This document shows, piece by piece, positions 4,332 through 33,251 of a stretch of DNA of 37,094 nt; the first letter of the stretch is position 1, and each line of letters starts with the position of its first letter. Made by a program: the position numbers and the translations under genes. The stretch is from Lachnospiraceae bacterium. Lineage in GTDB: Bacteria > Bacillota > Clostridia > Lachnospirales > Lachnospiraceae. The stretch is from assembly GCA_015056925.1 (NCBI GenBank), contig SVFJ01000025.1, positions 1 through 37,094 of the forward strand, given 5' to 3'. Under the pieces are notes generated by a model. That model did not search any database. It was given only the letters and a program-made list of their open reading frames with translations, and was not told the DNA's origin.

Positions 4332-6470
4332 ATGAGTTATGTAGAACCTTTCATAAATTGGTCGGGAATGATGATTAGCTTTGCTTTCTGTGTTGCCATA
4401 ATAAGGCAGCAGGCTTCTAATGTGCAAAAGTGGTTGATGTTGACCTTTGCATGTGGATTTGTAACAGTTGTTGGTAATACCATGGAATTTTATGCGACCT
4501 CTGTAGATATAGCAATGACAGCGGTGAAAACGGCATATATTGGTAAAGTATATATGCTTTTGTTTGCGCTGATGTTTGGTGTTGAATTTACGGGACTCAA
4601 GATTTCTAAGATACCGTTTATTGTGTTGGGGGCATTAGATACATTATCTCTTGCGTTTATTATGACAAATGACCACCATATGTTTTTTTATACAGACATA
4701 GAGTTACTTCCTAAGCCGGATAATAAGTTTTACTTACTGTCTGAGAAAGGACCGATTTATTACATAGTGATGGGGCAAATGGTGCTTTGTATTTTTGCAT
4801 TTGCATATATGATTATCAGAGGAACGCAGAAAGCCTCCAAAGAAGCAAGGATACGAACAGCATTATTAGTTGTATCGGCATTGATTGTTTTGGTGTTGCT
4901 TGGCGGTGCTATTGCAGGAATGCTGGGGAATTATGACCCAACGACTTTTATGATTACTGTTGTAGAAATTATCATTATGATAAATGTAAAGCGGTATGGC
5001 TTATTAGATACCAAGCAGGTAGTGCAGGAGAGTGCGCTGGAGGCGACGCAGGAGGGATTGATTCTCGTAGATGAAAAGAAGCATTTGATTTATGCCAATA
5101 ATGTTGCAAGGTCGCTCTTTTATGATGTGGATTGGAATGATACCAAGCTGGTGCTTGATGATTTCTTTAAGGAAAGAGAATGGGTGCTGGATAAAGGAGA
5201 CCGACATTTTGAGGCACGAGTATCGGAGGTACGAAGCCAGAAGGGAAGGAATCTGCAAGGTTATATTGTATGGTTCTTTGATATGACTTTCCTGAATCAG
5301 TATACCAGTGAGATGATTCGACATAAGGAAGCATCAGAGCAGGCAAATAAGGCAAAGACGAATTTCCTTGCGCATATTTCTCATGAGATAAGGACACCGC
5401 TGAATGCTATTATCGGCTATTCGGAGCTGGGACTAAGGGAACGTGAGGCACTAAGAATTTCGGCGTATTTAAAGAGTATCAAGGTTGCAGCAAATACACT
5501 TTTGAATATGATGAATGAGATTCTGGATATTTCTAAGATAGAGTCAGGAAAAATGGAGCTTGTTTCTATTAATTATCGTTTTGACAAGCTGGTGCACGAG
5601 ATACAGTCCATGATGGAGGCACAGGCCGGGAAGAAGGGGCTGGAATTTCACCTGGAGGTAGCAAATGATATACCGAATCATCTGGTAGGAGACAGGGGAA
5701 AGCTTCACGAAGTCATGATGAATCTGATTTCAAATGCGATTAAATATACACCGGAAGGTAGTGTTACATTAAGAGTGGATAAACTGGAGGCTACCGAGAG
5801 TCAGGTGCTTCTTCGGATTGAGGTAGAGGATACAGGAATCGGTATTGAGGAAGAGAACTTTGACAAGGTTTTTGAGAAGTTTGAACAGTTTGATAAAGAA
5901 AAGAACTATAATATTCAGGGAAGCGGACTTGGGCTTTCGATTACCAAGAGTTATGTTGTCATGATGGATGGAAATATTTCACTGGAAAGTGAATACGGTA
6001 AGGGAAGTAAATTCATCGTTACGGTATGGCAGGGGATTTCAGAAGAGGTTGAGGAAGACGCAGGGGAATCCCTTGACAGCAATGTCAGAATCCGCAGTGC
6101 CAAGCTTCTTGTTGTAGATGATAACGAGCTGAATTGTGATGTGGCACAGGGTATTCTCAATTATATGGGAATGGATACAGATACTGTGCTGTCAGGTGCA
6201 GAGTGTCTGAAACTGTTAGAAGAGGGACATCATTATGCGATGATTCTGACAGACCATATGATGCCGGAAATGGATGGTGTAGAGCTGATGCATAGGATTC
6301 GTGAACTAGGTGGTAAGTATGAAAAAATTCCGATTGTTCTGCTGACGGCAAATGCAATACGCGGTGTCAGGGAAGATATGATAAAGGAAGGCTTTGATGA
6401 ATTTCTTACAAAGCCGATTGAGGTTGGCGAATTAAGACGAGTATTGATGAAGTTTCTTGGACAAGAGTAG
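4332..6470 (+). CDS. Membrane hybrid histidine kinase (7TM sensor, PAS, HisKA, HATPase, receiver)
   Basis: 712 residues. About seven hydrophobic segments fill residues 1-220, like the 7TM N-terminal region of some Firmicutes kinases. A PAS-like domain follows (about 230-325), then a HisKA dimerisation helix with phospho-acceptor H351 in AHISHEIRTPLNAI. The ATP-binding domain shows N-box NLISNAIKYT, G1 DTGIGI and G2 GSGLGLSI. A receiver domain closes the protein, with VVDDNE acidic residues, phospho-acceptor D641 in ILTDHMMPEMDG and K-P in LTKPI. The signal it senses is not known. Start ATG at 4332 has GGAG 13 nt upstream. No separate response regulator or DNA-binding output lies nearby, so output probably goes through an unlinked partner. 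The next gene is a close paralogue with the same domain order and nearly the same length. Confidence 0.93.
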   Translation: MSYVEPFINWSGMMISFAFCVAIIRQQASNVQKWLMLTFACGFVTVVGNTMEFYATSVDIAMTAVKTAYIGKVYMLLFALMFGVEFTGLKISKIPFIVLGALDTLSLAFIMTNDHHMFFYTDIELLPKPDNKFYLLSEKGPIYYIVMGQMVLCIFAFAYMIIRGTQKASKEARIRTALLVVSALIVLVLLGGAIAGMLGNYDPTTFMITVVEIIIMINVKRYGLLDTKQVVQESALEATQEGLILVDEKKHLIYANNVARSLFYDVDWNDTKLVLDDFFKEREWVLDKGDRHFEARVSEVRSQKGRNLQGYIVWFFDMTFLNQYTSEMIRHKEASEQANKAKTNFLAHISHEIRTPLNAIIGYSELGLREREALRISAYLKSIKVAANTLLNMMNEILDISKIESGKMELVSINYRFDKLVHEIQSMMEAQAGKKGLEFHLEVANDIPNHLVGDRGKLHEVMMNLISNAIKYTPEGSVTLRVDKLEATESQVLLRIEVEDTGIGIEEENFDKVFEKFEQFDKEKNYNIQGSGLGLSITKSYVVMMDGNISLESEYGKGSKFIVTVWQGISEEVEEDAGESLDSNVRIRSAKLLVVDDNELNCDVAQGILNYMGMDTDTVLSGAECLKLLEEGHHYAMILTDHMMPEMDGVELMHRIRELGGKYEKIPIVLLTANAIRGVREDMIKEGFDEFLTKPIEVGELRRVLMKFLGQE

Positions 6471-6489: not shown

Positions 6490-6599
6490 AAGGTTACCGT
6501 TTGTATACGGTAACCTTTGTTATCGTTTGTATACGGTAACCTTTGTTATCGTTTGTATACGGTAACCTTTGTTATCGTTTGTATACGGTAACCTTTTTT
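6490..6599 (+). repeat. Terminator whose 3' arm is tandemly repeated four times (26-bp unit)
   Basis: Unit: CGTTTGTATACGGTAACC followed by TTTGTTAT. Three exact copies (6498-6523, 6524-6549, 6550-6575) and a fourth cut after 18 nt (6576-6593), which runs into TTTTTT. A single complementary arm, AAGGTTACCG (6490-6499), stands in front and can form a 10-bp stem with the CGGTAACCTT of any of the four copies. Only the last copy has the long T run expected of a terminator. It lies between the two kinase paralogues. The identity of the copies suggests recent slippage or unequal exchange. Confidence 0.9.
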
Positions 6600-6630
6600 G
6601 TGAGTCTGAGGTTTGTTAGGAGGATATCGC

Positions 6631-8772
6631 ATGGGATGGATTTGGCCGACTATTAACTGGATATGTTTGATAATATGCTTTGTGTTTGCAGTATATATTA
6701 TGAAAAGAGAAGCATCGAATGTGCAAAAGTATTTGATGCTATGCTTTGTATGTGGATTTGCAGCGTCAGTATGCAATATGGTAGAGATGTATGCTGATAC
6801 ATTGGAGGTAGCATTGACGGCTGCTAAGATTGCTTATATGGGTAAGCTGTTTATGGTACTTTTTGCGCTGGTGTTTGCAGTAGAGTTTGCACAGATTAGG
6901 TTCTCTGAGCTGCCCTGTTATCTGCTGGGACTAATTGATACAGCATTTCTTGCTCTGGTAATGACTAATGAGCATCATCATTGGTTTTATCGGGATGTCC
7001 ATATGGAGGAGAAATCTAACGGTATGCTGTATATGGTGACAGATAAGGGACCGCTGTACTATGTGATTATGGTGGAGATTGCACTTTGCATTATTGCAGC
7101 GGTTATCGTGGTTCTTAGAGGAACAAGGGGACAGTCAACTGAGTCAAAGGGAAGAGTTGTGGCATTGATAGCTCTTTCTACTCTTGTGATTGTTCTGATA
7201 GCATCAGCACTATGTTACATATTGGAGACAATAGACCCTGCAACGGTTGTGATAACCGCCATGGAAATTTTGATTATGATAGGGGTACATACCTATGGAC
7301 TTTTTGATTCCAAGCAGATTGTGCAAAAAAGTGCTTTGGAGGCGACACAGGAAGGTTTGATTTTTGCAGATGAGAAGAAAAGGCTGATATATGCGAATGC
7401 ATTTGCCAGAGAGCTTTTTGGTGAGTCAATCGCAAAAGGAGAGTCGTTAGCGTATTTTTTAGAAGAGAAGGAATGGGTATTTGATAAGGATGGGTGTCAC
7501 TACGAAGCCAGAGTATCGGAGGTTCGTAATAAGCAGGGAGATGCGATACAAGGTTACATTATGTGGATTTTTGATATGACCTTTATCAATCAATATACCA
7601 GCGAAATGATTCGACACAAGGAAGAAGCAGAAAATGCAGACCGGGCAAAGACGAATTTTCTTGCCCATATTTCGCATGAACTAAGAACACCGATGAATGC
7701 CATTGTAGGCTACTCGGAGCTTGCAGGAAAAGAGCAAACAACATCGAAGGGAATGACATATTTGAATAATATAAAGAATGCAGCAAAGATGTTAATAGGG
7801 ATGATGAACGAGATATTGGATATCACAAAGATAGAGTCAGGCAAGATAGAGATTACAGAGATTTCCTATAATTTGGATAAGCTGGTATGTGAAGTCAGTT
7901 CCATGATGGAGGCGCAGACAGCAAAGAAGGGGTTAGAGTTTGGATTAGAGGTTGACAGTCTGATTCCAAAGAATCTGATTGGTGACAGAGGAAAGATATA
8001 CGAGGTTATCATGAATCTGCTCTCTAACGCTATTAAGTATACAAGAGAAGGAAGTGTCAGTCTTAGATTAAAAAGATTGGAGAGTATTCAGGGGCAGGTT
8101 CTGCTTCAGATAGAGGTGGAGGATACGGGCATTGGTATCAAAGAGGAGTTCTTTGATAAGGTATTTGATAAGTTTGCGCAGTTTGACAGGGAAAAGAACT
8201 ATGATATTCAGGGAAGCGGTTTGGGACTTGCCATTACCCAGTATTATGTGCAGCTGATGGAAGGGGAAATCCATATTGAAAGTGAATACGGAAAAGGTAC
8301 ACGGTTTGTTGTTACCCTATGGCAAGGGATTGCAGACGGTGCGGTGGAAGAAGAAACGGAAACATTGTTCGATGAAAGCATCATACTAAAGAAGGCAAAG
8401 GTTTTGGTCGTGGATGACAATGAGATGAATTGTGATGTAGCAAGAGGACTTTTGAACTGTATGGGTGTGGAAGCAGATATTGCTTTGTCAGGAGAGGAAT
8501 GCTTAGCGATGCTGAAAGACGGAAAGGAATATGCAGTGATTTTGACAGACCATATGATGCCGCAGATGGATGGTGTCGAATTGATGCATCATATCCGTAC
8601 CTTGGGGGAAGAATATAAGCAGCTACCGATTATTTTACAGACAGCAAACGCAATCAGTGGTGTGCGGGAGCATATGCTGCATGAGGGCTTTGATGACTTT
8701 ATTGCAAAGCCGATTCAGATAGGAGAGTTACAGAAGGTATTACTAAAATATTTGGGAACAGAGGAGATATAG
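6631..8772 (+). CDS. Membrane hybrid histidine kinase, paralogue of the preceding gene
   Basis: 713 residues with the same order as its neighbour: about seven membrane segments (1-220), PAS-like domain, HisKA with H349 (AHISHELRTPMNAIVGY), HATPase with NLLSNAIKYT, DTGIGI and GSGLGLAI, and a receiver with D640 (ILTDHMMPQMDG). All catalytic residues are kept. Similarity runs through the whole length, including the sensor (for example KREASNVQKYLMLCFVCGF against RQQASNVQKWLMLTFACGF in the first copy), so this is a tandem duplication that has diverged. The start at 6631 is preferred because AGGAGG (6618-6623) lies 7 nt before it; a TTG at 6613 lies upstream of that site. The stop is 3 nt before the next gene, a beta-galactosidase, so the two are probably co-transcribed. 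The kinase may sense a sugar or a related state, but this is only inferred from that neighbour. Confidence 0.93.
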   Translation: MGWIWPTINWICLIICFVFAVYIMKREASNVQKYLMLCFVCGFAASVCNMVEMYADTLEVALTAAKIAYMGKLFMVLFALVFAVEFAQIRFSELPCYLLGLIDTAFLALVMTNEHHHWFYRDVHMEEKSNGMLYMVTDKGPLYYVIMVEIALCIIAAVIVVLRGTRGQSTESKGRVVALIALSTLVIVLIASALCYILETIDPATVVITAMEILIMIGVHTYGLFDSKQIVQKSALEATQEGLIFADEKKRLIYANAFARELFGESIAKGESLAYFLEEKEWVFDKDGCHYEARVSEVRNKQGDAIQGYIMWIFDMTFINQYTSEMIRHKEEAENADRAKTNFLAHISHELRTPMNAIVGYSELAGKEQTTSKGMTYLNNIKNAAKMLIGMMNEILDITKIESGKIEITEISYNLDKLVCEVSSMMEAQTAKKGLEFGLEVDSLIPKNLIGDRGKIYEVIMNLLSNAIKYTREGSVSLRLKRLESIQGQVLLQIEVEDTGIGIKEEFFDKVFDKFAQFDREKNYDIQGSGLGLAITQYYVQLMEGEIHIESEYGKGTRFVVTLWQGIADGAVEEETETLFDESIILKKAKVLVVDDNEMNCDVARGLLNCMGVEADIALSGEECLAMLKDGKEYAVILTDHMMPQMDGVELMHHIRTLGEEYKQLPIILQTANAISGVREHMLHEGFDDFIAKPIQIGELQKVLLKYLGTEEI

Positions 8773-27371: not shown

Positions 27372-27416
27372 TATAATAAGAATTTTTATGCTGTCGGCGA
27401 GTGAAAGCGCCGGCAG
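27372..27416 (+). promoter_or_regulatory. glgP -10 box and GC-rich 5' leader hairpin
   Basis: TATAAT at 27372-27377 is a likely -10 box; no good -35 is seen. The leader then forms CTGTCGGCG (27391-27399)/CGCCGGCAG (27408-27416), nine pairs with one wobble and an 8-nt loop, ending 8 nt before the purine-rich ribosome-binding site. It may stabilise the message or tune initiation. Confidence 0.5.
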
Positions 27417-27433
27417 GGAAAGAAGAGGTAAAA

Positions 27434-29704
27434 ATGAGCGTAAAAACAAATTTGGAAGCAGCAGCACAGAAGATGTATGGTAAAGCGATTGCACAGCTTG
27501 ATGACAAGCAGCTTTACTTTGCAATCCTGCAGATGACTAAGGAGATGATGCAGGGTAAGGGCCAGATTAAGGGCAGCAAGAAGGTATATTATATTTCTGC
27601 AGAGTTCTTAATTGGTAAGCTTTTATCTAATAATTTAATTAATCTTGGTATCTATGATGAGTTAGAGGATGTACTTAAGGCTGAGGGTAAGGAATTAAGC
27701 CGTATCGAAGAAATCGAGCCGGAACCATCTCTTGGTAACGGTGGTCTTGGAAGACTTGCTGCTTGCTTTTTAGATTCTATTGCATCTCTTGGACTTCCTG
27801 GAGATGGTATCGGTTTGAACTATCATTTTGGTTTATTTAAGCAGGTGTTTGTTGACAGACAGCAGACAGCCGAGAAGAATGACTGGATTGAGGCACAGTC
27901 TTGGTTAACAAAGACAGATATCACATTCCCTGTATACTTTGGTAAGAAGAAGGTAATGTCAAGATTATATGATATTGATGTAATCGGTTATGAGCAGGGC
28001 GTGAATAAGCTTCATTTATTTGATATTGAGACTATCGACGAGAGCATCGTTGAGGATGGTATTGATTTTGATAAGAAGGATATTGATAAGAATCTTACAT
28101 TATTCTTATATCCTGATGATTCTGATGAGGCAGGTCAGATGCTTCGTATTTACCAGCAGTATTTCATGGTATGTAACGGCGCACAGCTTATCTTAAAGGA
28201 GATGAAGGACAATGGTTATGACCTTCATAAGATGTACGACCATGCAGTTATCCAGATTAATGACACACATCCGACTATGGTTATTCCTGAGCTTATCAGA
28301 ATCCTTACAGAGGAAGAGGGCTTCGAGATGGAAGAGGCTATTGAGGTTGTAAGCAAGACTTGTGCATACACAAATCACACTATTCTTGCAGAGGCACTTG
28401 AGAAGTGGCCAATCAAGTATTTACAGAAGGTTGTTCCGCAGTTAATGCCTATTATCTGGGAGCTTGATAAGAGAATTGCCATCAAGTATGATGACCCAAA
28501 GGTACAGATTATCGATAAGGATTTGAGAGTACACATGGCTCATATTGATATCCATTACGGATTCTCTGTAAACGGTGTTGCTGCTATTCATACAGAGATT
28601 TTAAAGGATACAGAGTTAAATCATTTTTATAAGATTTATCCTGAGAAGTTCAATAACAAGACAAACGGTATTACCTTTAGAAGATGGTTGTTATCATGTA
28701 ACAGGGAGCTTGCTGATTTGATTACAAAGACAATCGGTTCGGGCTACAAGAAGGATGCGGATGAGCTTGAGAAGCTTCTTAAGTTCAAGGATGATGAGGC
28801 TCTTTTAACAGCAATCAAGACAATCAAGAAGGATAAGAAGGCCGCGTTGGCGCAGTATATTAAGGAGAATGAGGGACAGGATATCAATCCTGAGTCTATC
28901 TACGATATTCAGATTAAGAGACTTCATGAGTATAAGCGTCAGCAGATGAATGCGCTTTATATCATTCATAAGTATCTTGAGATTAAGGCCGGTAAGAAGC
29001 CATCTACACCAATCACATTTATTTTTGGTGCAAAGGCAGCTCCTGCTTATATCATTGCACAGGATATTATTCATTTACTTCTTTGCTTACAGGAAATCGT
29101 GAATAACGACCCTGATGTAAAGGACTATATGAAGGTTGTTATGGTAGAGAACTACAACGTAAGCTACGCAGAGAAGTTAATTCCTGCATGTGATATTTCA
29201 GAGCAGATTTCACTTGCTTCTAAGGAGGCATCCGGTACAGGTAACATGAAGTTCATGTTAAACGGTGCGGTAACTCTTGGTACAAGTGACGGTGCAAACG
29301 TAGAGATTAATGAGCTTGTAGGCGATGAGAACATCTATGTATTCGGTGAGAAGTCAGAGGCAGTTATTGAGCATTATGCAAAGGCTGACTATGTTTCTAA
29401 GAAGTTCTACGAGGGCAGCAAGGTAATCAAGGAAGCGGTTGATTTCATTATCGGCAAGCAGGTTATGGCAGTTGGTAATAAGGAGAGATTGACAAGACTT
29501 CATAAGGAATTAATCAATAAGGACTGGTTTATGACATTACTTGACTTAGAGGACTATATCGAGACTAAGGATAGAATGTTTGAAGACTATAAAGATGAGG
29601 CTAAGTGGAAGCGTATGATGCTTGTAAACATCGCAAAGGCAGGCTTCTTCTCATCAGACAGAACAATTGCAGAGTATAACAGAGATATTTGGAAGTTGAA
29701 GTAA
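27434..29704 (+). CDS. glgP: Glycogen/maltodextrin phosphorylase
   Basis: 756 residues, GT35 family. It releases glucose-1-phosphate from the non-reducing ends of alpha-1,4-glucans. Diagnostic stretches include [35 protein letters not shown] and [11 protein letters not shown]; the pyridoxal-phosphate lysine is K606 in [14 protein letters not shown], followed by [11 protein letters not shown]. It is shorter than the 790-850 residues of enterobacterial and eukaryotic enzymes, as in other clostridial phosphorylases, because the N-terminal regulatory part is reduced. AGAGG is about 6 nt before the ATG at 27434. The gene follows a LacI regulator and precedes a 1-kb non-coding region. With GlgX and MalQ it forms a complete cytoplasmic route for glycogen or imported maltodextrin. 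Confidence 0.96.
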
Positions 29705-29899: not shown

Positions 29900-30367
29900 A
29901 GTTGTGGAAATATGGAAAGTTGGTATAGGAAGTCTGAAAAGGGCTGTAATACCAAGTGAAAAATGAAAACTTGGTATTAGGAGCTTGAAAAGGTGACTGA
30001 GACCAAGTGAAATGTGGAAAGTTGGTCTCAGGAGTGGGAAAAGGTGACTGAGACCAAGTGAAATGAGGAAAGTTGGTCTCAGGAGCGGGAAAAGGTGACT
30101 GAGACCAAGTGAAATGTGGAAAGTAGGTCTCAGGAGTGGGAAAAGGTGACTGAGACCAAGTGAAATGAGGAAAGTAGGTCTCAGGAGTGGGAAAAGGTGA
30201 CTGAGACCAAGTGAAATGAGGAAAGTTGGTCTCAGGAGTGGGAAAAGGTGACTGAGACCAAGTGAAATGTGGAAAGTTGGTCTTAGGAGAAGAAAAGTCG
30301 TGCTGAGACCAAGTGAAGCATGGAGAGTTGGTCTTATGAGTGAAAAAAGGCAATAAAGACCAAGTAC
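29900..30367. repeat. Tandem array of 51-bp hairpin units (nine regular copies)
   Basis: The sequence ACC(A)AGTG recurs with the A at 29951, 30002, 30053, 30104, 30155, 30206, 30257, 30308 and 30359: eight intervals of exactly 51 bp. One more, decayed copy lies in phase before it (29900). A typical unit carries CTGAGACCAA, a 15-nt purine-rich loop, and TTGGTCTCAG, then a purine-rich link (GAGTGGGAAAAGGTGA). Seven middle units differ at only a few places. In the copy at 29947-29979 both arms are changed together (TAATACCAAG/CTTGGTATTA) and still pair over 10 bp. All three plus-strand frames are closed by TGA; one minus frame is open only because the unit is a multiple of three. The rest of this 1-kb gene-free stretch (29745-29899 purine-rich; 30368-30706 AT-rich) shows nothing I can name. 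Confidence 0.93.
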
Positions 30368-30706
30368 AGATGTAGATTATATATTAGACTAAGAAAATAA
30401 GCGATTTATGGTTGATTTTTTTGATATAAATGATTATTATGATTTTGATATATATAATTTTCTTTATTATTAATAAGATTAATGCAAAGGGGCAAATGAG
30501 TGCACTTAATCATATTAATACATATTTAAGAGCTAAAGATTATTTTAGCAGAATCTATTCATGCTTGATTCAAGCGAATATTTCACACTTAATTATAATT
30601 TACAATTAGTATATGGACATATGCAAAACATAGAGAAATTACTTGATTTTATTTGTAATCAACAAGTTTTGTATAGGATTTATGTGGCTAGTACAAAGGA
30701 GTTTTT

Positions 30707-31486
30707 ATGTTTTATGAACAATTGAAAAGGGAACAAGAATGTATCGCAAAGCAAATTACAAGTATCGAAGATAAGCTGGTAGGTATGCCAGAAGGAAAAT
30801 TGATTTGCGCTAAGAATAGGGAGTGGTACAAGTGGTATGTGAGTGATGGTAAGAAGAAAATATACATATCCAGTAAAAATAATGCAATAGCAGAAAAGTT
30901 AGCAGAGAAGTGTTATCTACTAGTTGAACTGGAAGAGTTAAAAAATAAGAAGAGTATCTTGGAAAAATTAGAGACTGGCTATTTAAAATATTCAAAAGAG
31001 ACAGAGCAATTCTGGGAAAAGCACCCAGGAATAAGGCAGCTGCTGAAGCTGTCAAAGCCAAATTTGTCGGAGGAATTGCAAGAATGGGCTAATGCAGAAT
31101 ATAAGAGAAATACTGGTTTTCCAGAGAATTTAAAGTTTGGTACACCGTGGGGAGAAGTGTTTCGGTCAAAATCGGAGTCGATGATTGCGAAGAGTTTGCG
31201 GGAGAGAGGGATACCGTATCGATATGAGTGTGCGTTAAAGCTTGGGGATGAGACGGTGTATCCGGACTTTACGATTCGGCATCCCAGGACAGGAAGAATC
31301 TATTACTATGAACACTTTGGGAAGATGGATGATGTGGGGTATACGAATAGAAATTTACCGAAAATTCTGTCATATACGAAGCATGGTATTATTCCAGGGA
31401 TTCATCTAATTATGTCGTTTGAGACGCAGGCTGAACCGTTGAGTATGTATACAATTGAGAGTATACTGTCGCAGTATTTCGAATAA
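30707..31486 (+). CDS. Unknown protein with N-terminal coiled coil and PD-(D/E)XK-like nuclease domain
   Basis: 259 residues, not a family I can name. Residues 1-95 are charged and helical (QLKREQECIAKQITSIEDKL; LEELKNKKSILEKLE), probably coiled coil. From about 145 it resembles the PD-(D/E)XK nuclease fold: E157 in SKSESMIAKSLRERGI, then P186-D187 in TVYPDFTI, then E202 in YYYEHFGKMDD. In such 'EHFG/EHLG' variants the usual E-x-K lysine is replaced, so activity is uncertain. AAAGGAG stands 5 nt before the ATG. It has no operon partner on either side and lies directly after the 51-bp hairpin array in an AT-rich stretch, which suggests it, the array, or both are accessory. A link between them is only a hypothesis. 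Confidence 0.8.
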   Translation: MFYEQLKREQECIAKQITSIEDKLVGMPEGKLICAKNREWYKWYVSDGKKKIYISSKNNAIAEKLAEKCYLLVELEELKNKKSILEKLETGYLKYSKETEQFWEKHPGIRQLLKLSKPNLSEELQEWANAEYKRNTGFPENLKFGTPWGEVFRSKSESMIAKSLRERGIPYRYECALKLGDETVYPDFTIRHPRTGRIYYYEHFGKMDDVGYTNRNLPKILSYTKHGIIPGIHLIMSFETQAEPLSMYTIESILSQYFE

Positions 31487-31769: not shown

Positions 31770-33251
31770 ATGAGAAATTGCGGAGTGTTACTACCGGTAT
31801 CAAGTTTACCAAGTAAATATGGTATTGGCGGCTTTTCGAAGGAAGCATTTGAGTTTGTTGATTTCCTTGCGAGGGCAGGTCAGACTTATTGGCAGATTCT
31901 GCCGTTAGGACCGACAGGATATGGAGATTCGCCATATCAGTCATTTTCAACCTTTGCGGGTAATCCGTACTATATCAGTTTGGAGAAGCTGGTTGATGAG
32001 GGATTGCTGACAGCAGCAGAGTGTGAGGCAGAAGATTCTTTTGATAATGAAAGCTATGTGAATTATGAGAAAATATACTATACCAGATTCAAGCTTCTGA
32101 AAAAAGCATTTGACAGAGCTGACATAAACGGAGATAATTCATATCAGAGCTTTGTAAAGGAAAATGAAGCATGGTTAAAGGATTATGCTTCCTATATGGC
32201 AATTAAGGATTCCTTGGGCGGTATCTCATGGATAGAGTGGGAGGAGGACATCAGACTACGTAAGCCGGAGGCGATGGCACGCTATCAGAAGGAGCTTGCA
32301 GAGGAGATTAGTTTTTATTGCTATCAGCAGTATCTCTTTGCAAAGCAGTGGAAGGAATTAAAAACATATGCCAATAAGAAGGGCGTTAAGATTATCGGAG
32401 ATATCCCGATTTATGTGGCATTTGACAGTGCGGATACGTGGGCGAATCCGGAGCTCTTCCAGTTAGATGAGAAGAATATTCCGATTGCGGTAGCAGGATG
32501 TCCACCTGATGCTTTCTCGGCGACAGGACAGTTATGGGGTAATCCTTTGTATCGTTGGGATTACCATGAGAAGACAGGCTTTGCATGGTGGATTCGTCGT
32601 ATGGAGTATTGCTTCAGATTATATGATATGGTTCGTATTGACCATTTCAGAGGCTTCGATGAGTACTGGGCGATTCCGTATGGTGATGAGACAGCTGAGT
32701 TCGGTGAGTGGAAGAAGGGACCGGGTTATGCACTTTTTGCCGAGATGAAGAAGCAGTTAGGCAACAGACCTGTTATCGCAGAGGATTTAGGATTCCTGAC
32801 ACCGAGCGTGTTAAAGCTTGTGAAGAAGACAGGATATCCCGGTATGAAGATATTGCAGTTTGCCTTTGATTCAAGAGAGGAAAGCGACTATCTTCCGCAT
32901 AATTATACGAACAACAGCGTAGTATATACCGGAACACATGATAATGATACAGTCAATGGCTGGATTCCTGCGATGAACAGAAGAGATTTGGCATTTGCAA
33001 AGAAATATGCCGGAGTAAAGAGAACAAAGGACTTATGCCCGGCGTTGATTAAGATGGCACTTGCCAGCGTATCAGATACTGCAATTATTCCATTGCAGGA
33101 TTATCTCGAGCTTGGCAGTGAAGCAAGAATTAATACCCCATCCACACTTGGAGGCAACTGGGAGTGGAGAGTGACATCAGAGGCTATGACTGATGAGCTT
33201 GCAAAGAAGATGCTTGAGTGGGCACGTATTTTCGGACGTGTTGCAAGATAA
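31770..33251 (+). CDS. malQ: 4-alpha-glucanotransferase (amylomaltase, GH77)
   Basis: 493 residues, the normal length of bacterial amylomaltases of the Thermus type. It moves alpha-1,4-glucan segments between maltodextrins and frees glucose, making short chains long enough for the phosphorylase. The N-terminus RNCGVLLPVSSLPSKYGIG is characteristic. The catalytic residues are D291 (nucleophile, RIDHFRGFDEYW), E338 (acid/base, IAEDLGF) and the aspartates of GTHDNDTVNGW near 391. DSPYQSFSTFAGNP is also typical. TTTGGAGG stands 6 nt before the ATG. It is cytoplasmic, with no signal peptide. It is followed by a LacI-family regulator gene. Confidence 0.97.
   Translation: MRNCGVLLPVSSLPSKYGIGGFSKEAFEFVDFLARAGQTYWQILPLGPTGYGDSPYQSFSTFAGNPYYISLEKLVDEGLLTAAECEAEDSFDNESYVNYEKIYYTRFKLLKKAFDRADINGDNSYQSFVKENEAWLKDYASYMAIKDSLGGISWIEWEEDIRLRKPEAMARYQKELAEEISFYCYQQYLFAKQWKELKTYANKKGVKIIGDIPIYVAFDSADTWANPELFQLDEKNIPIAVAGCPPDAFSATGQLWGNPLYRWDYHEKTGFAWWIRRMEYCFRLYDMVRIDHFRGFDEYWAIPYGDETAEFGEWKKGPGYALFAEMKKQLGNRPVIAEDLGFLTPSVLKLVKKTGYPGMKILQFAFDSREESDYLPHNYTNNSVVYTGTHDNDTVNGWIPAMNRRDLAFAKKYAGVKRTKDLCPALIKMALASVSDTAIIPLQDYLELGSEARINTPSTLGGNWEWRVTSEAMTDELAKKMLEWARIFGRVAR

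Follow-up and report, generated by a model that had tools for sequence, protein, structure and literature searches.

The window, i.e. the whole stretch of DNA analysed here, is the 37,094-nt contig SVFJ01000025.1 of a Lachnospiraceae bacterium (assembly GCA_015056925.1). Its right-hand part carries a tandem array and a gene for a nuclease-like protein, arranged as follows:

27401 to 29704, + strand: glgP, glycogen phosphorylase, upstream of the array
29902 to 29946, no strand assigned: partial, degenerate unit at the 5' edge of the array, delimited by eye (TRF begins at 29907)
29947 to 30354, no strand assigned: eight 51-bp units, each an inverted half-site pair, from TRF and unit alignment
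30355 to 30400, no strand assigned: ninth unit, degenerate, at the 3' edge of the array, with the left half-site intact and the right one decayed
30707 to 31486, + strand: gene of a nuclease-like protein of 259 aa, from profile, fold and model comparison
31770 to 33251, + strand: malQ, 4-alpha-glucanotransferase, downstream of the nuclease-like gene

Nine ACCAAG anchors follow each other at a spacing of exactly 51 bp from 29951 to 30359, and TRF reports 29907-30350 with a period of 51, 8.7 copies and a score of 591. The exact periodicity with an inverted repeat in each unit, as claimed in a sequence-only reading of this DNA, was borne out by these positions. The half-site core is GACCAAGT in the 51-bp units, AATACCAAGT in the first of them; an 11-bp interior lies between the half-sites and a purine-rich 18-bp spacer separates the units. 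Unique spacers, by which CRISPR differs, are absent as had been stated, interiors and spacers being nearly identical within an array. Rfam gave no match at gathering score in the window. A second tandem repeat of the window (26 bp, 6493-6596, 4 copies, 98% match) has a sensor-kinase-like gene on either side (4332-6470 and 6613-8772), the two being paralogous.

The glgP loci of 29 relatives from the genus were read up to 1.5 kb past glgP (326 bp in one) and contain neither the gene nor an array with a period of at least 30 bp. In the four relatives with malQ in reach, glgP and malQ are 195-565 bp apart, compared to about 2.07 kb in the window. Neither a target-site duplication nor a precise border was found.

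The sequence-only reading proposed that pairing, not sequence, is kept in the array. The unit alignment confirmed the joint replacement of both arms in unit 29947 (TAATACCAAG/CTTGGTATTA) and the change giving a G-T pair in two late units (unit starts 30253 and 30304). In the case of the seven units said to share both arms, this is correct for the left arm CTGAGACCAA, but the right arm TTGGTCTCAG accompanies it in units 29998, 30049 and 30202 only; units 30100 and 30151 have the right arm TAGGTCTCAG, which leaves one position unpaired. A G-G mismatch adjoins the arm (column 11 with 25) in all seven units having the left arm CTGAGACCAA. In the window arm family (22 aligned units, 18 distinct rows, 190 cells), 90.0% of the cells pair against a shuffled mean of 87.9%. 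Two-sided change was observed in five of the 190 cells, all in edge units (mean of 1.5 in shuffles, with none of 500 having as many as five), so that a little covariation of the stem is present, whereas 19 of the 190 cells are unpaired and the G-G mismatches likewise speak against it. For the sister family from another genome, G087 (ten arrays, 99 units), 214 cells are changed one-sidedly, 45 of those leaving a G-T pair, in contrast to 8 compensated cells, 1 two-sided G-T and 7 two-sided unpaired cells. A general maintenance of pairing is thus unsupported, since one-sided changes far outnumber the compensated ones; judged from the aligned units, the half-site and its spacing seem to be conserved within a genome, rather than base-pairing.

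The window array folds far better than its shuffles (z of -12.2 on the + strand and -9.6 on the - strand). This is expected of a transcript and counts against a reading as DNA. It favours an RNA system, like type III toxin-antitoxin or of another kind, in which transcripts of the array would form repeated hairpins and bind the nuclease-like protein. The slight two-sided change in the window arm family points in the same direction, the dominance of one-sided arm changes in the opposite one, and together with the evidence given below we regard such a system as unlikely.

For the 259-aa protein, residues 1-96 comprise an N-terminal helix, a three-stranded sheet and a 41-residue helix, followed by linker helices, and a REase-like domain is predicted at about 151-259. 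The predicted model aligns with REase-fold nucleases; Foldseek returned no match at E<=0.001 and Pfam no family at E<=1. The N-terminal half also matched prefoldin, Rad50 and V-ATPase subunits, which we read as generic coiled coil. The C-terminal domain matches PDC-S68, a candidate defence protein of PADLOC (E 2.3e-23); the PDC-S68 models comprise about 1200 aa, and the match is confined to their last 140 positions. Across 64 sequences the residues E157, D187, E202 and H203, which are putatively catalytic, do not vary; the nuclease motif is without its usual lysine. The missing lysine would suit a protein that acts as a regulator, with little or no remaining nuclease activity, and arrays that serve only as operators or titration sites to control its own and other genes. 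However, the invariance of the four putative catalytic residues speaks against this reading, which we consider improbable.

Relatives of the protein recur in Lachnospiraceae genomes. The genome of the window holds six further relatives, one of them a fragment. Of 37 other genomes from the genus, 7 gave matches, and in three of these 7 the matching part forms the C-terminal domain of a larger, helicase-like open reading frame. In a sample of the family, 69 of 220 genomes match (profile, E<=1e-25, the window's own included), 7 of which have only partial or fused copies by our reading of the match list. In a sample of the phylum 6 of 299 genomes match at E<=1e-30; four belong to the Lachnospiraceae (again including the window's own) and the other two cover only part of the profile. 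A scan of named genomes delivered at least 582 stretches, at least 558 of them encoding a relative, from which the 80 best loci were taken as discovery set. These are mostly from Lachnospiraceae, some from other Clostridia and one from a record named Treponema. Two of the discovery loci, L055 and L056 (JAGAQI010000047.1), are inverted copies identical over 6,774 bp and about 142 kb apart on one 265-kb contig, which is either a recent duplication or an assembly artefact.

Plasmids showed no DNA match and protein matches to the C-terminal part only, the genes being annotated as 'AAA family ATPase' in 6 of the 7 records and the seventh record being unannotated. Two phage records match the protein. 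In one of them, MT839528.1 (L324; 4,212 bp, from human faeces), which is filed as phage, the encoded homologue is nearly full-length and has 29% identity, and TRF finds no tandem array. IMG/VR contains 7 partial relatives. The C-terminal nuclease-like domain was also seen at the end of far larger, partly helicase-like proteins (L031, L030) and of open reading frames of 1,112-1,260 aa (G096, G140, G149, G235, G251), an arrangement like that of PDC-S68.

Homologues of the protein are repeatedly accompanied by tandem inverted half-site pairs, and the half-sites vary by gene. Within the genome of the window, other relatives have arms of their own, for example AGGTCCA/TGGACCT, GACGGAAAA/TTTTCCGTC and CCGACTG/CAGTCGG (TRF). 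For quantification, TRF arrays with a period of at least 30 bp and a score of at least 100 were counted in the 600-bp flanks and, as control, beyond 1.2 kb. The 80 discovery loci (L055 and L056 both counted) have an array coverage of 11.4% upstream and 8.7% downstream of the gene, compared to 0.6% and 1.0% beyond 1.2 kb. A replication set of 109 out of about 150 listed places, 3 of which share a 70% cluster with the discovery set, gave 26.2% and 8.4% versus 1.1% and 2.0%. The restriction to 104 independent clusters (replication loci without a discovery-set relative at 70% identity) changed little, with 26.8% and 8.5% versus 1.1% and 2.1%. A recurring 7-mer hairpin arm was detected at 44 of 91 loci (4 of 62 control stretches), at 64 of 109 replication loci (6 of 57) and in 62 of the 104 independent clusters (6 of 55). 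L056, L044 and L063 were dropped from the hairpin-arm and period counts; L058, with a stop inside the match, was excluded from the protein references with its flanks kept in the counts, and three partial matches with reported stops (L197, L229, L232) were retained in the replication count.

When only non-coding DNA was considered, with one locus per cluster, the counts were 71 of 148 upstream compared to 6 of 52 far upstream; downstream the contrast is weak (27 of 122 versus 10 of 60). By these measures 47 of 91 loci, and 45 of 109 in the replication, are without an array. About half of the homologous loci therefore have an array of their own, for the most part a short way 5' of the gene, and only the upstream excess is firm. 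Co-occurrence with homologues of the protein, which had been suggested as a check, is seen as an enrichment beside the gene in the discovery as well as in the independent sets. The upstream arrays end at a median of about 130 bp before the gene, a concentration that would also suit operators, whereas the many units per array exceed what an operator needs.

Tandem slippage alone would make the arrays ordinary minisatellites which lie beside these genes by chance. The homogeneity of the units within an array and the degenerate edges fit this explanation, but the association survives the flanking and the non-coding controls. It is further opposed by periods that are quantised and tied to protein relatedness, and by arms and spacing that are kept across arrays whose other bases differ (see below). 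We therefore hold it to be very improbable.

The periods of near, hairpin-bearing arrays, taken once per protein cluster and period (n=58), fall into the groups of 40 (2 arrays), 51-54 (22), 62-64 (9), 71-75 (22), 85-86 (2) and 117 bp (1). At 10.5 bp they are phased with R=0.795 (Rayleigh p ~1e-16). This holds for the discovery set (R 0.764, n=17), the replication set (R 0.813, n=41), the independent clusters (R 0.810, n=40) and one array per 45%-identity cluster (R 0.779, n=35), and the bootstrap peak is at 10.65 bp (95% 10.2-10.85). Near arrays without a 7-mer hairpin phase less (R 0.405, n=72), and arrays beyond 1.2 kb showed no phasing (R 0.158, n=19); the few non-near arrays of at least 48 bp show some (R 0.331, n=15). 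About 10.5 bp is the helical pitch of B-DNA, whereas an RNA duplex has about 11 bp per turn. The unit lengths of the arrays are whole turns of B-DNA. The arm-to-arm distance within a unit is off the 10.5-bp grid (R 0.09, 86 arrays).

The period class is linked to the protein. It agrees with that of the nearest protein relative (<70% identity) at 45 of 75 loci, with 22.9 expected and 0 of 5000 permutations reaching this value, and at 44 of 73 when one locus per cluster is taken (22.6 expected); four of 86 arrays were outside the class filter. At all seven loci with two classed arrays both agree in class. Arm similarity, in comparison, shows only a weak increase with protein identity (Mantel r 0.142, 0 of 5000), which argues that the arms change fast.

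Further evidence bears on an RNA system. Since the periods come in steps of about 10.5 bp, i.e. on the grid of B-DNA, a structured RNA, which had been offered as one option and for which the strong fold of the window array speaks, is disfavoured. One strand of the DNA between the arms is strongly enriched in purines: relative to the gene strand, 41 of 66 upstream arrays are R-rich, 11 Y-rich and 14 between (downstream 6, 5 and 6). Purine-rich interiors, mostly on the gene strand, are in favour of RNA and count against a pure DNA view, because unpaired RNA linkers would show such a bias too. In type III toxin-antitoxin systems (ToxIN, CptIN, TenpIN), tandem repeats are located 5' of a nuclease gene and the repeat length is conserved within protein groups, according to PMC5086642. 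The present loci are alike in that a tandem array directly precedes a nuclease-like gene and repeat length follows the protein group. They differ in that no toxin family, the ToxN/AbiQ type included, was found for the window protein in the Pfam, NCBIfam or PADLOC results; the protein family is unrelated. Arrays also occur 3' of the gene and at distant sites, and the periods of the near arrays show DNA-helix phasing. No terminator-like site was detected on the + strand of the window between 30400 and 30707, and none between array and gene in any of 66 upstream arrays, an absence that is weak since the shuffled mean is only 1.2. By the criteria in PMC5086642, type III membership fails on the missing terminator (0/66) and the unrelated protein.

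Arrays with the same arms also occur away from the gene. A DNA search of the window's assembly revealed three further arrays with the half-site GAGACCAAGT and the 51-bp period, on contigs C96, C43 and C127; none of the window protein's seven relatives in its own genome lies on these. The three orphan arrays resemble each other (95% and 89% identity) over about 300 bp, which comprise the array and, on one side, a flank of about 90 bp, as if array and flank had been copied together. This flank is not shared with the window locus, and comparison with the window array shows that the arms are kept and the spacer differs. Short perfect palindromes were noticed in the common flank (L011:430-521, L010:2640-2731, L009:2485-2569). 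The flank of one orphan array has weak matches in five relatives (E 0.012-0.086). The exact-unit pattern of the window array had no match in genome_contigs or viral_contigs, and the array likewise gave 0 matches when 59 relatives were searched with it at the DNA level; as far as searched, the arm is therefore private to its genome.

For five other arrays of the window's genome, further same-arm arrays were found only at contig ends, and we therefore read these as assembly breaks. A search with 20 arrays across 14 genomes yielded same-arm matches at many places, among the matches listed. From these genomes 20 same-arm stretches were fetched, and by profile the nuclease is absent from every one of them; four (L304, L308, L320, L321) end at or near a contig end and may be broken-off pieces of another array. 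In G087, ten arrays, one of which adjoins the gene, all retain GATACGTA/TACGTATC and a 53-bp period, with interior and spacer uniform inside each array and different from array to array. The half-site pattern, with a gap of 8-30 bp allowed, occurs at 81 sites of this genome (reversed control 0), and the gap is exactly 15 bp in 48 of the 50 sites listed out of 81, on 12 contigs. Some half-site pairs are apparently solitary. Such pairs would be compatible with scattered operators, whereas whole arrays far from the gene are more than operators need.

The nearest known organisation is that of REPIN-RAYT, where an enzyme gene lies beside its own inverted repeats; a genome has several such pairs, which differ in repeat type, and its repeats are dispersed, as described in PMC3116915. 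The likeness consists in a nuclease-like gene beside its own repeat type, at about half of the loci, and in inverted half-site doublets dispersed in the genome. The differences are the REase-like fold in place of an HUH/Y1 transposase, for which there was no family match, and the long tandem arrays with helical phasing. Membership fails because the protein is not a Y1/HUH transposase (no Pfam family at E<=1). Homing endonucleases of the EDxHD/Vsr-like type (e.g. I-Bth0305I) differ as well: the present gene is free-standing beside arrays of probably its own sites, the N-terminal half of the protein is different as far as seen, and no intron or intein was seen. The window gene is intergenic, the glgP-malQ gap is much shorter in the four relatives mentioned, and Rfam shows no intron in the window.

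We consider it rather probable that the array is the cognate DNA of the adjoining nuclease-like protein, i.e. a phased double-stranded binding array in a REPIN-RAYT-like organisation with an unrelated protein. The alternatives of RNA hairpins, type III toxin-antitoxin or CRISPR agree less well with the data. That the array might be bound by the adjoining protein or be its substrate was among the first suggestions, and it gains support from the co-occurrence, the same-arm arrays elsewhere and the link between period and relatedness. Association, phasing and dispersal of the arms are what the data show, whereas binding, cutting and movement are our inference. In this model a probable dimer of the protein would bind the inverted half-sites on double-stranded DNA through its N-terminal coiled-coil/beta half, and the phasing would set successive dimers on one face of the helix, which might allow stacking or looping. 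The REase-like domain may then introduce nicks or breaks in the array or close to it; their repair, or copying with the array as template, could lead to expansion, homogenisation and spread of the array, similar to the action proposed for RAYTs on REPINs. Where the bound array lies upstream, the protein would in addition regulate its own gene. Apart from the purine bias and the RNA fold, several observations count against this explanation: about half of the loci have no array, the downstream excess in non-coding DNA is weak, the arm distance is off the grid, non-near arrays show some phasing, and there is no Foldseek match, no motif lysine and no target-site duplication.

Every known kind of system tested fails a defining feature, and the likeness to REPIN-RAYT is one of organisation. 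More tentatively, and as a possibility we would not yet call probable, it could represent a new class of self-spreading bacterial DNA, in which a REase-fold nuclease reads phased half-site arrays and expands and disperses them by break repair, with a specificity that re-evolves fast and several mutually blind pairs per genome. In the open-access literature searched, we found no account of such tandem repeats in gut Lachnospiraceae. Should gene and array indeed function as a pair, this would account for this kind of tandem repeat and would constitute a second, independent arrangement of the REPIN-RAYT type with a different protein. These bacteria would then provide a range of natural nuclease-like proteins, about 260 aa in length and each beside its probable own recognition sequence, in which the spacing reports the geometry of the complex.
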